Assembly: GCF_900142465.1 (NCBI RefSeq)
Contig: NZ_FRAX01000005.1
Coordinates: 1 to 64,000 of the forward strand
DNA: 64,000 nucleotides
Direction of reading: 5' to 3'
Origin: Fibrobacter sp. UWH6
Lineage (GTDB): Bacteria; Fibrobacterota; Fibrobacteria; Fibrobacterales; Fibrobacteraceae
Positions 2,912 to 62,872 of this stretch are shown one piece after another. The position numbers and the translations under genes were made by a program. Position 1 is the stretch's first letter, and every line of letters starts with the position of its first letter. The notes beneath the pieces are model-generated. The model searched no databases and was not told the origin of the DNA. It saw only the letters and a list, made by a program, of their open reading frames with translations.

Positions 2912-4990
2912 TTATTCTTCGGCGCTGATCTTCTTGAGCAGGTCGTCGGCAAGTTTTCCGTCTGATTCAATGTTCTGCACCAGCCAGTCCACCGACTCCT
3001 TCAGTTCGCTGTTCGGATATTTCTGTTGGAAAGTCTTGAGGACCTGGAGAGCCTCATCGTTCTTATTGAGATTCTCGCTCAAGATAAAACCGCGGCTGAA
3101 CAAGGACTTTTCCGCTTCAGGGCTATCGGGGAAGATTTCGTAGCAAGCCTGATACTCCGCTTCAGCTTCTTCAAAGCGGCCAGTCTCGTTATAAATTTGA
3201 GCGCTTTCGTAGATAGCCAACTTCACAAGAGAATCGTTTTCGCCATAGGCAAAAATCAAATTGCGATAGGCTTCCAGTGCTTCATCATTCAAGCCTTCCT
3301 TACGCAAGGAATCAGCGTTGGCCACCAGTCGATCAGCCAAGATCGTAGGCTCCCATTCCTGGATACTGCTATCGTAGAAGTGAAGCACAGCAGACTGGTA
3401 ACTTTCAGCAGCAAAGCGGGCTTCACTCATATCGCTCTGCATCCTCCAGTTCTGTCTGAAGAGGACCGGAAGAGTTTGTTTGAAATCAAGTTTAAAGTAG
3501 CTAGATTTTTTACTCAGGAAATATTCGTGTCTAAGGATATTCATCGGGAACATTGCTGCGGCACGAACCTCACTGCGTCCCTGTTCAAAGGAATATTCCT
3601 GATGCACGGGGCTTCCATAACGTTCGTAGAAAGCCTTCAGGGAATCTTCGCTAACTTCTACGTTCTGACGTTTCTTAAAGAAGTAGTTATCGAAGATGAA
3701 ATTTCGACGGGCTGCACGCACCAAGGCGCGGTATTCCCAGGTTTTATCCAGTTTCAAATTCAGGGCAGCCTTGCTGAACAGCAGTCTTTCTACAACCATG
3801 CTAAACAAGTGCTGATGGTTGCGAGCATTGACCTCGGCCATGAAATCCCTTTTGCAAATACGCTTCAGTTCCCCTTCAGTCAGCAAAGTTTCACCATTTT
3901 CAGACAGGAGAACATAGGAAGAATCCACATCAAAGAATTCTCCGCTAGCCAACCCCTGCTTGATAGAGGCTTCAACGCGATCAAAAGTCTTTTGTTTCGG
4001 CTGAACCAGGGAAGACAGATAGAATACGTGGTAGGCATTACCGACATCGGCCTTGATTACAGGCGATACAAAGCCTGCATCCTTGCCATTCAAGGCGGCA
4101 CTCAAACCAGAAACCATGCCAATACCGTACGGCATGGCAAAGCCGTCCTTGACGTAGCCGACAAAGCCGCCTTCCTTGGCGGTAGCTTTATTTGCACTCT
4201 TTGTGGAAGCGATTTTCTTGAAATTTTCAAGGTCAGTGGTTTCGTTAAACAGGGCTGCCAGGGCAACGGAATCTGTTCCCTGCACATGATACAGTTCATA
4301 ACCGGGGGCAGTCATGAACATATCCATATGCTTTTCGTAGAAAGCCTTCGGTTCCGGCTTAGGCAATTCATGGAACGTCACATGAAGGTCTGAGGCGAGG
4401 TTCCTTGCAATCTGTTCCTTGAGTTCAGAACGGTGGAGTTCAACGAACTTGGTCTTCCAAGTTATGGAATCTTCTCTGGACGTAGAGCCCATCAAGTGTT
4501 CTTTCAAGTAAGCATTCAAGGCTTCCTTGGAATGAGACATATAGTATTCGCAGGCAACAATTCCCTGAATGACACTAAAATCAGGAAGGGGCGCCTCTTC
4601 AAACAGGCTGCGATGTTCGTCATAGAAATGACGAAGTTCCGGTTCGGAATAAGTAAGGCGTTCATTCAGGTAGAAACGCTGATAGACGGAAGCAAGCAGC
4701 TTGGGCTCAATCAAACCGAGAAATTCTTCCCATTCCTTGTTCAACTCGGGGAACTGTGTCAAAGCCTTGGAAACGACGGCTTCCTTCGCATAAACATTTT
4801 CGTAGAGACGCTTGTTCAAAGGTTCCTTGGAGGAAATGGAATTTTTCATCAAGAGAACAAGGTCTTCTCGATAGACGACTTCCTTATCAATGCGAGCAAG
4901 AATGGTATCCTTATCCCCCACACTGTTGCAGCCAGTCAAGGCAAACAGATTTAGGAGACTCACAGTAAAAAAGGCAAAGCGGAGTTTCAT
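2912..4990 (-). CDS. Lipoprotein with SurA/parvulin-like PPIase region and C-terminal TPRs
   Basis: 692 residues with a lipoprotein signal peptide (lipobox LTGC, Cys21). The N-terminal part resembles SurA/PrsA chaperones (DTILARIDKEVVYREDL is typical of the segment before a PPIC domain). Around residues 220-345 is a parvulin-like segment with EGGFVGYVKDG and a later FVSPVIKADVGNAYHVF. The last 130 residues contain tetratricopeptide-like repeats (NDEALEAYRNLIFAYGEND, RFEEAEAEYQACYEIFPDS). Such lipoproteins assist envelope protein folding; this is family knowledge. It is divergent from tamB across a 228-nt region, which fits a role in outer-membrane protein biogenesis. SD GAGG lies just upstream of the ATG. 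Whether the PPIase is catalytically active cannot be judged from the reading. Confidence 0.75.
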   Translation of the reverse strand: MKLRFAFFTVSLLNLFALTGCNSVGDKDTILARIDKEVVYREDLVLLMKNSISSKEPLNKRLYENVYAKEAVVSKALTQFPELNKEWEEFLGLIEPKLLASVYQRFYLNERLTYSEPELRHFYDEHRSLFEEAPLPDFSVIQGIVACEYYMSHSKEALNAYLKEHLMGSTSREDSITWKTKFVELHRSELKEQIARNLASDLHVTFHELPKPEPKAFYEKHMDMFMTAPGYELYHVQGTDSVALAALFNETTDLENFKKIASTKSANKATAKEGGFVGYVKDGFAMPYGIGMVSGLSAALNGKDAGFVSPVIKADVGNAYHVFYLSSLVQPKQKTFDRVEASIKQGLASGEFFDVDSSYVLLSENGETLLTEGELKRICKRDFMAEVNARNHQHLFSMVVERLLFSKAALNLKLDKTWEYRALVRAARRNFIFDNYFFKKRQNVEVSEDSLKAFYERYGSPVHQEYSFEQGRSEVRAAAMFPMNILRHEYFLSKKSSYFKLDFKQTLPVLFRQNWRMQSDMSEARFAAESYQSAVLHFYDSSIQEWEPTILADRLVANADSLRKEGLNDEALEAYRNLIFAYGENDSLVKLAIYESAQIYNETGRFEEAEAEYQACYEIFPDSPEAEKSLFSRGFILSENLNKNDEALQVLKTFQQKYPNSELKESVDWLVQNIESDGKLADDLLKKISAEE

Positions 4991-60513: not shown

Positions 60514-60930
60514 TTATTGGAATATTGGCATAGTCTCAATTTTTTCGAAACGTTTTGTTGTTCCGTCTAGCTTAAAATAACGGACCCCATCCCCAAGGGA
60601 TAGCATCACATAATTGGGAGTCAAAATCTGCAGGTACTTGTTTAACTGCTGCTGTAAAGCAGGCCAGTTGTATTCCCCGGGAGCCTTGCACTCCACCAGA
60701 AGCCAAGGTTTGTCTATCGTAGCACCGTCACGGAAGTTATGGACCATAATGTCCACACGGTCGTCCGTCTTCGGATCAACGACATTCAACGAAAACTCTA
60801 CCGCAATCAAATGTTCCGGAACTTTCACCTGGTCCAGCAAATAACGGATAGTCGCCTGGCGCACGTGTTCTTCGGGCGTTGCGGGAACATCCTTCTTGCG
60901 GATTGGGTCATATATGGTTTCTGTTGACAT
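60514..60930 (-). CDS. HsdR N-terminal-like nuclease domain protein (HSDR_N_2)
   Basis: 138 residues. Opens IYDPIRKKDVPATPEEHVRQ and contains VEFSLNVVDPKTDDRVDIMV and WLLVECKAPG, the PD-(D/E)xK-type pattern (D...ExK) of the type I restriction enzyme R N-terminal domain. It is a stand-alone domain, with no HsdM, HsdS or helicase nearby; similar single-domain proteins are common in this phylum group and their role is unknown. No SD; TATTTT ends 7 nt before the ATG, suggesting a leaderless mRNA. It converges on xseA. Confidence 0.82.
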   Translation of the reverse strand: MSTETIYDPIRKKDVPATPEEHVRQATIRYLLDQVKVPEHLIAVEFSLNVVDPKTDDRVDIMVHNFRDGATIDKPWLLVECKAPGEYNWPALQQQLNKYLQILTPNYVMLSLGDGVRYFKLDGTTKRFEKIETMPIFQ

Positions 60931-61019
60931 GAGCAGAAAAATAGAAAACAGGCGACATTGCGTTAGAGAGTTTCCCTAAAACAGACCTTTTTTCATTTTT
61001 TGGGCTCCACACGCCCGCA

Positions 61020-61215
61020 TTTTGCAGATTTGGAGTCCAATATTACGCACAAACTAACAATAAAATTCACTTTAACTGAATCCAATGGACTCCATATTCA
61101 CAACAACTCCCATTTTGGAGTCCATTTCAATGAGCGTCCTCTCAAAAACATCTCATACAAACTAAAAAACACAGGCTCCAAATCGGGAAAAATCTTAATT
61201 TGGAGTCCAATTTTC
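61020..61215. repeat. Cluster of four TGGA(G/C)TCCA palindromes
   Basis: Perfect odd palindromes at 61030-61040 (TTGGAGTCCAA), 61086-61094 (TGGACTCCA), 61116-61124 (TGGAGTCCA) and 61200-61210 (TTGGAGTCCAA), plus partial copies (GGGCTCCA at 61002, GGCTCCAAA at 61174). They lie in AT-rich non-coding DNA between the hsdR-N-like gene and the promoter at 61239. They look like protein-binding sites. Confidence 0.65.
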
Positions 61216-61238
61216 CCCAAAAAAAGACTTTTTATGCC

Positions 61239-61267
61239 TTGACTTACATAAAATCCAGAAGTATATT
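61239..61267 (+). promoter_or_regulatory. Sigma70-type promoter of the short transcription unit
   Basis: TTGACT (61239-61244), 17-nt spacer, TATATT (61262-61267). Predicted start of transcription is at or next to the ATG at 61275. Confidence 0.7.
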
Positions 61268-61274
61268 TTAGGAC

Positions 61275-61379
61275 ATGAACAAGATCTTTGAACAGAACAT
61301 CATCGCAGCAGCAATTGCGGCAGGCGCGGCGGAAGCACGAGCCTGTGTTGAATCATACGCGACTGTTCAAGAATTGTAA
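61275..61379 (+). CDS. Putative leaderless 34-residue peptide
   Basis: ATG 61275 to TAA 61379. The peptide opens MNKIFEQNIIAAAIAAGAAE and ends CVESYATVQEL; the middle is Ala-rich and could form one amphipathic or membrane-associated helix. The ATG lies exactly 7 nt after TATATT of a well-formed promoter, the same geometry as several other genes of the window without SD, and a terminator follows 45 nt after the stop. No family recognised. The alternative is that the roughly 185-nt transcript is a regulatory RNA and the frame is incidental. Confidence 0.5.
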   Translation: MNKIFEQNIIAAAIAAGAAEARACVESYATVQEL

Positions 61380-61424
61380 AGGGTCTATACGCAACCAACA
61401 AGCGAATCAGACAAAAAGGAATTC

Positions 61425-61460
61425 AAAGGGCAGTCCCGCAAGGACAGCCCTTTTTATTTT
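61425..61460 (+). terminator. Rho-independent terminator of the short transcription unit
   Basis: AAAGGGCAGTCC and GGACAGCCCTTT pair with one A-A mismatch around a CGCAA loop, followed by TTATTTT. Confidence 0.85.
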
Positions 61461-61567
61461 AGCCAATTTTAAACCAAAAACAACAAACAAGGAAAATTCA
61501 AAATCATTTTTTATCTATTATTAAGCGGTAAATTATTTGAATTTTCAATACGATACAGGAGTATAAA

Positions 61568-62872
61568 ATGAGAAAGCGTTTGCTTACCGAAGGTGCCAAG
61601 GAACTGTCTTACGAAATTCGTGAGATCGTTAAGAAGGCGAACCTCCTGAAAACGCTGGGTATGTCCAAGATTCATTGGGAAAATATTGGCGACCCCATCG
61701 AAAAGAAGTGTGAAGTCCCTGAATGGATCAAGGACATCGTTGTGGACCTTTCCAAGGAAAACCGTTCCTATGGTTACTGCCCGTCCAAGGGTATGCTGGA
61801 AACCCGCGAATTCATCGTGAAGGAAACCAACAAACTGGGCGGCGCCCAGATTACCGTTGACGACATCCTGTTCTTCAACGGCCTCGGTGATGCAATCGCC
61901 ACATTGTACAGCCTCCTGTCCATGACCACCCGTATCATTGGACCGTCTCCTGCATACAGCACCCACAGCTCTGCAGAAGCAGCACATGCACACTCTGCTC
62001 CTATCACCTACAGCATGAAGCCGGAAAACCACTGGTATCCGGACCTGGAAGAACTTGAAAACAAGGTGAAGTACAACCCCTCCATCGCTGGCATCCTGAT
62101 TCTGAATCCGGACAATCCCACTGGCATGGTCTATCCTCTTGAAATTCTCCAGAAGATCGTTGATATCGCAAAGCGTTACAACCTGTTCATCATCTGCGAC
62201 GAAATCTACAACAAGATTACCTACAATGGAGCAAAGGCTTACGCTCTGGCCGAATACATCGGCGACGTTCCGGCTATCGCTCTCAAGGGTATCTCCAAGG
62301 AATATCCGTGGCCGGGCGCACGTTGCGGCTGGGCTGAATACTACAACCGCGACAAGGACGAACAGTTCGACGCCTTCTGCCGCGCTCTTGACAACGCCAA
62401 GATGGTTGAAGTCTGCTCCACCACCCTTCCCCAGATGACCATTCCTCGCGTGCTGGGCGATCCTCGCTTCATGGAACACCGCCAGGCTCTGAACGAAAAG
62501 ATTGGCCGTCGTAGCGCTATTATTAACGAAATTCTTTCCGACATTCCGGAACTGTATTTCAACCCCACTTACGGTGCATTCTACAACACCATCATCTTCC
62601 GTGAAGGTGTTCTGAACAACCACCAGAGCCTGAAGATCGACAATCCGCAGATCAAGGCCAAGGTTGAAGAATGGTGCTCCAAGACCGAAAATCTGGACTA
62701 CCGCTTCGTGTACTATCTGTTGGGAGCAAAGGGTATCTGCGTGGTGCCCAGCACCAGTTTCTGCACAGACCTCAAGGGCTTCCGCGTGACGCTGCTTGAA
62801 GAAGACGAAGCAGAACTGCGCAGCGTGTTCACCACCATCCACGACGCCATCATCGAGTACCTGCATAGTTAG
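61568..62872 (+). CDS. PLP-dependent aminotransferase, class I/II (alanine/aspartate transaminase-like)
   Basis: 434 residues. Fold-type I features: SKGMLETREFIV, ILILNPDNPTGMVY, IICDEIYNKITY and the PLP lysine region IALKGISKEYPWPGARCGW; C-terminal FRVTLLEEDE supplies the carboxylate-binding Arg. Likely an alanine- or aromatic-type transaminase like AlaA; substrate cannot be fixed by reading. A weak GGAGTATAAA precedes the ATG. Codon use is biased as in highly expressed genes. The hairpin cluster after it may act as its 3' end. Confidence 0.92.
   Translation: MRKRLLTEGAKELSYEIREIVKKANLLKTLGMSKIHWENIGDPIEKKCEVPEWIKDIVVDLSKENRSYGYCPSKGMLETREFIVKETNKLGGAQITVDDILFFNGLGDAIATLYSLLSMTTRIIGPSPAYSTHSSAEAAHAHSAPITYSMKPENHWYPDLEELENKVKYNPSIAGILILNPDNPTGMVYPLEILQKIVDIAKRYNLFIICDEIYNKITYNGAKAYALAEYIGDVPAIALKGISKEYPWPGARCGWAEYYNRDKDEQFDAFCRALDNAKMVEVCSTTLPQMTIPRVLGDPRFMEHRQALNEKIGRRSAIINEILSDIPELYFNPTYGAFYNTIIFREGVLNNHQSLKIDNPQIKAKVEEWCSKTENLDYRFVYYLLGAKGICVVPSTSFCTDLKGFRVTLLEEDEAELRSVFTTIHDAIIEYLHS

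Follow-up and report, generated by a model that had tools for sequence, protein, structure and literature searches.

Leader-peptide attenuation is a textbook mechanism for Trp, His, Leu, Ile/Val, Phe and Thr. Among the described systems, the trpL leader transcript of Sinorhizobium meliloti (rnTrpL/peTrpL) begins at its start codon (PMC7298713). Attenuators have also been predicted by comparative genomics in Actinobacteria (PMC1262725) and for hisS/hisZ in Firmicutes (PMC2965389). In a limited search of the open-access literature, neither an alanine attenuator nor any attenuator in Fibrobacter or its phylum was found.

The window is the whole stretch of DNA analysed here, 64,000 nucleotides (64 kb) from contig NZ_FRAX01000005.1 of Fibrobacter sp. 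UWH6. Positions 61239-61460 very probably constitute a ribosome-mediated, alanine-responsive attenuator of an AlaA-like aminotransferase gene, and an adjoining palindrome array is a separate, lineage-restricted repeated element. The unit resembles the classical trp, his, leu and ilv attenuators in having a short ORF, clustered codons for a single amino acid (here the likely product), 1:2, 2:3 and 3:4 hairpins, and a terminator before the gene. It differs from them in its Ala codons, its AlaA-like aminotransferase target, the control of a single gene, its host phylum Fibrobacterota, and a start codon predicted to lie at or adjoining the 5' end. With the S. meliloti trpL leader it would share the start-codon 5' end and a short RNA, released by attenuation, that carries a peptide ORF, while that system differs in responding to tryptophan, having 14 codons, preceding trpE(G), and having known trans functions (PMC7298713). 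The Actinobacteria and Firmicutes predictions likewise place leader peptides outside Proteobacteria, but they concern Trp, Leu, Ile/Val, Cys and His, and alanine is mentioned in neither (PMC1262725, PMC2965389). The anatomy of the unit, its gene linkage, the competing hairpins and their covariation were computed here. The features are as follows.

61239..61267, plus strand: sigma-70-type promoter TTGACT-17-TATATT; the same promoter-to-start layout occurs in 55 distinct leaders of the genus
61275..61379, plus strand: Ala-rich leader peptide ORF of 34 codons, from Ala-codon density and conservation in the genus
61286..61295, plus strand: attenuator region 1, CUUUGAACAG, which pairs with region 2 and is conserved in the genus
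61359..61375, plus strand: attenuator region 2, GCGACUGUUC AA GAAUU, which pairs with region 1 or region 3
61420..61437, plus strand: attenuator region 3, AAUUC AAA GGGCAGUCCC, from covariation with region 2
61425..61460, plus strand: intrinsic terminator (3:4), AAAGGGCAGUCC-CGCAA-GGACAGCCCUUU and then a U-run, from RNAfold and conservation in the genus
61568..62872, plus strand: aminotransferase gene, PRK06855 (NCBIfam), from the profile match and the best solved relative

The promoter consists of a -35 box TTGACT (61239-61244) and a -10 box TATATT (61262-61267) separated by 17 nt. The ATG at 61275 is 7 nt 3' of the -10 box in a near-leaderless arrangement, and the transcript is predicted to start at or adjoining this ATG. 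The peptide (MNKIFEQNIIAAAIAAGAAEARACVESYATVQEL) contains 10 Ala among its 34 codons, and from 61305 onward 9 of 13 codons are Ala, the densest stretch of Ala codons in any frame of the 64-kb window. Region 1 lies inside the ORF directly 5' of the Ala codons, region 2 is the 3' end of the ORF, and region 3 doubles as the 3' arm of the antiterminator and the 5' arm of the terminator. The terminator segment has a folding energy of -18.3 kcal/mol (RNAfold) and its stem includes one A.A mismatch, owing to which a terminator scanner overlooked it. A preliminary description of this DNA had reported the promoter, the position of the ATG, the 34-codon frame and a good terminator, and all are present as described, the last as a hairpin with a T-run at 61425-61460. 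The intergenic gap was also recognized there, but it measures 637 nt between the flanking genes rather than 635 nt. No Pfam or NCBIfam match was obtained for the peptide, and no Rfam family, T-box and metabolite riboswitches included, reached the gathering score across the whole 64-kb window.

In the proposed mechanism, RNA polymerase would initiate at or adjoining the ATG, and the Ala-rich leader would be translated by ribosomes. When Ala-tRNA is scarce, a ribosome would stall in the Ala run and mask region 1, so that region 2 would pair with region 3, the terminator would be blocked, and the aminotransferase gene would be transcribed. When Ala-tRNA is abundant, the ribosome would proceed, region 2 would be hidden by the ribosome or by region 1, and pairing of regions 3 and 4 would end transcription ahead of the gene. 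The stalling and the alanine signal are inferred. The placement of the regulatory codons fits a stalled ribosome that covers region 1 and leaves region 2 free: region 1 occupies codons 4-7, the Ala codons start at codon 10-11, and region 2 is 58-88 nt from region 1.

Three hairpins that exclude one another are possible in the leader RNA: 1:2, 2:3 (the antiterminator) and 3:4 (the terminator); region 2 is common to the first two and region 3 to the last two. In the genus, region 1 UUGRACAG pairs with region 2 GGGGCUGUCC (GCGACUGUUC in the window), which can pair alternatively with region 3 GGGCAGCCCC (GGGCAGUCCC in the window). The mean energies of 1:2, 2:3 and 3:4 are -35, -29 and -16 kcal/mol, with mean z values of -3.6, -5.8 and -3.8 against mononucleotide shuffles. 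The 3:4 terminator hairpin is present in 55/55 distinct leaders (mean -15.7 kcal/mol), and the 2:3 antiterminator is the structure that RNAalifold selected unprompted. In alignment A1, 97.3% of the cells of the 2:3 helix are paired, and the pairing falls to 31-53% when the partner is moved by 1-3 columns. Five pairs of this helix are altered on both sides against 1.6 in shuffles, and 0 of 500 shuffles reach five, these counts coming from sequences related by descent and hence not being independent events. The changes include G-C to A-U at pair 4 in the window clade, G-C to A-U at pair 2 in one leader (L057), and GAAAC:GUUUC to GAAUU:AAUUC in the middle helix. One C.C mismatch is retained in the 2:3 helix of the clade-A genomes.

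The reading frame of region 2 differs between eight leaders (the window clade) and the 47 others, while the CTGTYC core is retained together with its pairing. Nucleotides kept despite a change of frame are expected of an RNA element, not of a peptide. Because related sequences share ancestry, the slid controls and the frame change are stronger arguments than the counts of covarying pairs. When region 1 was blocked in silico in two window-type leaders, the equilibrium fold still favoured the terminator; antitermination in those two leaders would therefore be kinetic, with 2:3 formed before region 4 is made. Formation of 2:3 before the synthesis of region 4 is the usual kinetic assumption for attenuators.

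A search of relatives with the region covered 41 genomes of the genus; the terminator, and the stretch that starts at the -10 box and spans the ORF, were both conserved 5' of the same gene. A covariance model was built on the second half of the leader. It matched 58 of the 80 Fibrobacter genomes, with exactly one copy in each, and had no match in the 46 genomes taken from elsewhere in the class. The remaining 22 of the 80 gave no match, so the switch is dispensable. At every locus examined the aminotransferase gene is downstream of the leader, with the terminator 48-414 nt 5' of its ATG (55 distinct leaders); the gene upstream, by contrast, varies among genomes. The Ala share of the peptide is 25-34% in each of the 55 distinct leaders, versions with inserted codons such as AADARIAAHAAMAAS included. 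In relatives, the upstream neighbour is often a small stand-alone protein with an HSDR_N_2 domain (PF13588), which in the window is encoded at 60514-60930 on the minus strand, divergent from the palindrome array.

The preliminary description had taken the unit for a tightly regulated small peptide or regulatory RNA. A leaderless regulatory unit that yields a small peptide and a short RNA is indeed predicted, but its role would be attenuation in cis of the next gene. It appears highly improbable that the unit is instead an independent gene, with no switch for the next one, encoding a small functional peptide or a small RNA that acts in trans. Such a gene would agree with the unit having its own promoter and terminator, with a possible proximal promoter for the aminotransferase, and with the peptide ending GLSRETKICKA, which is well preserved in the main clade; rnTrpL/peTrpL, an attenuator RNA and peptide acting in trans, offers a precedent (PMC7298713). 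However, the linkage to a single gene is invariant, the antiterminator, which a stand-alone peptide does not need, covaries, and clade A reads the C-terminal half of the ORF in another frame with the RNA kept.

The gene downstream encodes a pyridoxal-phosphate enzyme of the aminotransferase class. Its best solved relative is the E. coli glutamate-pyruvate aminotransferase AlaA (E = 5e-41), a distant relative from which an alanine-forming reaction is inferred. Between the terminator and the gene there is a conserved TATAAT-like box, suggestive of another promoter from which transcription would escape attenuation, and attenuation may therefore govern only part of the expression. Directly 5' of the gene, at 61492-61546, an 11-bp inverted repeat (GAAAATTCAAA / TTTGAATTTTC) surrounds a TATTAT/TATAAT-like box. 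Judged by eye, its arms co-vary in relatives (AAGAATTTTC, GTGAATTTTC), also at loci without the leader, and it is possibly a hairpin of the 5' UTR or else a second promoter together with an operator.

The leader is absent 5' of the aminotransferase gene at L056, L071, L075, L077, L078, L082, L083, L085 and L087-L089, and a genome-wide search with the model found no copy elsewhere in these genomes. From these sequences, the switch is lost (or was never gained) several times in a minority of Fibrobacter genomes. At L055/L091 (G063:C55) the -10 box, the ORF and regions 1-2 are deleted, and the -35 box, the terminator and the palindrome array remain; the aminotransferase gene there would have to depend on a proximal promoter.

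If the attenuator is confirmed, alanine would be a new amino-acid specificity for leader-peptide attenuators, and its occurrence in Fibrobacter would widen both the amino-acid and the phylogenetic range of the mechanism. It would also provide, in a gut genus of major importance for fibre degradation, a ready-made alanine sensor, and would assign a likely role with alanine to an aminotransferase whose specificity is open.

Clusters of intergenic palindromes repeated around a genome are known as REP or BIME. The array upstream of the leader is likewise an intergenic cluster of palindromes that recurs around the genome. It differs from REP/BIME in having exactly three pairs in a fixed register of 29-30, 84-86 and 95-96 bp, in spacers that are unlike between places, and in its few copies. 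The motif TGGA(G/C)TCCA occurs five times in the 64-kb window against 0.34 expected, and four of the copies, at 61031, 61086, 61116 and 61201, fall within 180 bp. These are the four perfect palindromes of the preliminary description, which had also mentioned partial copies; with the imperfect partners TGGGCTCCA at 61001 and CAGGCTCCA at about 61172, the array is really one of six palindromic sites in three pairs.

61001..61039, strand not assigned: palindrome pair 1, TGGGCTCCA-N21-TGGAGTCCA, from sequence and array comparison
61086..61124, strand not assigned: palindrome pair 2, TGGACTCCA-N21-TGGAGTCCA, from sequence and array comparison
61172..61209, strand not assigned: palindrome pair 3, CAGGCTCCA-N20-TGGAGTCCA, from sequence and array comparison

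Pair 3 ends 30 bp 5' of the -35 box of the leader. This proximity, together with palindromic sites clustered far above chance, would suit operators of the leader promoter that form one regulatory unit with it, as had been proposed at first. That reading is nevertheless unlikely: the attenuator is found in 58 of 80 genomes, and among the 55 distinct leaders compared, that of the window's genome alone has the array upstream. Moreover, G063 retains the array beside its deleted leader, and arrays of identical type adjoin unrelated genes, one of them lying between convergent genes. The array is set apart from the attenuator because it is absent 5' of the other intact leaders examined and because the G063 array adjoins a deleted leader. 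Conservation in relatives, suggested earlier as a check, holds for the promoter, the ORF and the terminator independently of the palindromes, which are present in a few close relatives. Multiple sites for one factor is still a fair guess for the array taken alone; a role as operators of the leader is not supported.

The window's genome has this three-pair array at six intergenic places, G063 has it at nine or more, and G085, G095, G024 and G011 have it at fewer; one pair is left in G009. The close relatives G025, G036 and G096 are free of arrays. In the other genomes of the genus that match a loose two-pair pattern, the matches lie outside such arrays and are about as frequent as chance predicts. 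Beyond those few genomes, scanning 85,000 species gave only isolated matches, again about as many as chance predicts, and no match was found in viral contigs. In 16 arrays, the distance within a pair is 29 or 30 bp and that between pairs is 84-86 or 95-96 bp, the two between-pair spacings differing by about 11 bp, one helical turn. Copies of TGGACTCCA at C2:303959 and C7:150639, considered as array members, are isolated single sites outside arrays.

In each pair the two arms form inverted repeats, and one strand could tolerate G.U wobbles, so that the pairs could be read as three hairpin stems of a structured RNA. This has a low probability, since the arms do not covary: of the 48 pairs in the 16 arrays, 6 have imperfections in both outer halves, and independent arms would give 6.2. 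An earlier impression that every pair has at least one perfect arm was disproved by the addition of more arrays, and only the independence of the arms stands. Of 96 arms, 91 have an intact facing half and 59 an intact outer half, and a difference of one helical turn between the two spacings fits DNA. Binding of a protein to DNA is likelier than RNA folding because the palindromes outlast their spacers and the pair arms lack covariation. From these sequence comparisons, the array most likely consists of phased DNA sites to which a single dimeric or tetrameric protein would bind.

The arrays are scattered, intergenic and limited to few related genomes, and they are present or absent at orthologous places; at the coaBC-rpsA place, for example, the array is missing in G024. 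Decaying non-autonomous mobile repeats (REP/BIME- or MITE-like) without a cellular function would show such a distribution, and this origin has an appreciable, though minor, probability. It is opposed by the diverged orthologous arrays, in which identity is 91-93% in the arms but 61-73% in the inner spacers and 64-74% in the gaps, and by a spacing that stays fixed while the intervening sequence varies. Arrays at different places share no long sequence; only their arms align, and spacers are at background, unlike the whole-element similarity of MITE or REP copies. Alignment of the window locus with array-free relatives by MAFFT was mostly too diverged to define insertion ends.

As phased protein sites, the arrays would be a well-defined bait for the capture of a DNA-binding protein. 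A broader proposal is put forward tentatively, at somewhat less than even chances: that the locus combines the first alanine-specific leader-peptide attenuator, also the first described in the phylum, with a lineage-specific array of exactly three palindrome pairs, phased in whole turns of the helix across about 210 bp, which would be the wrapping or looping platform of a DNA-binding factor employed at 6 to 9 or more places in each genome.

Two arrays in G063:C44 (L164), at 2012-2230 and 3350-3568, are 1.2 kb apart and flank a trpS-like gene. The gaps of the arrays at L001, L003, L004, L029 and L166 have short motifs in common in addition to the palindromes: on the 95-96 bp side one pair is followed by ACAAACTAAC or GAATAAATTAAC, and on the 84-86 bp side the outer pair is preceded by ACAAAGTAAT. 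Proteins may bind these motifs as well.
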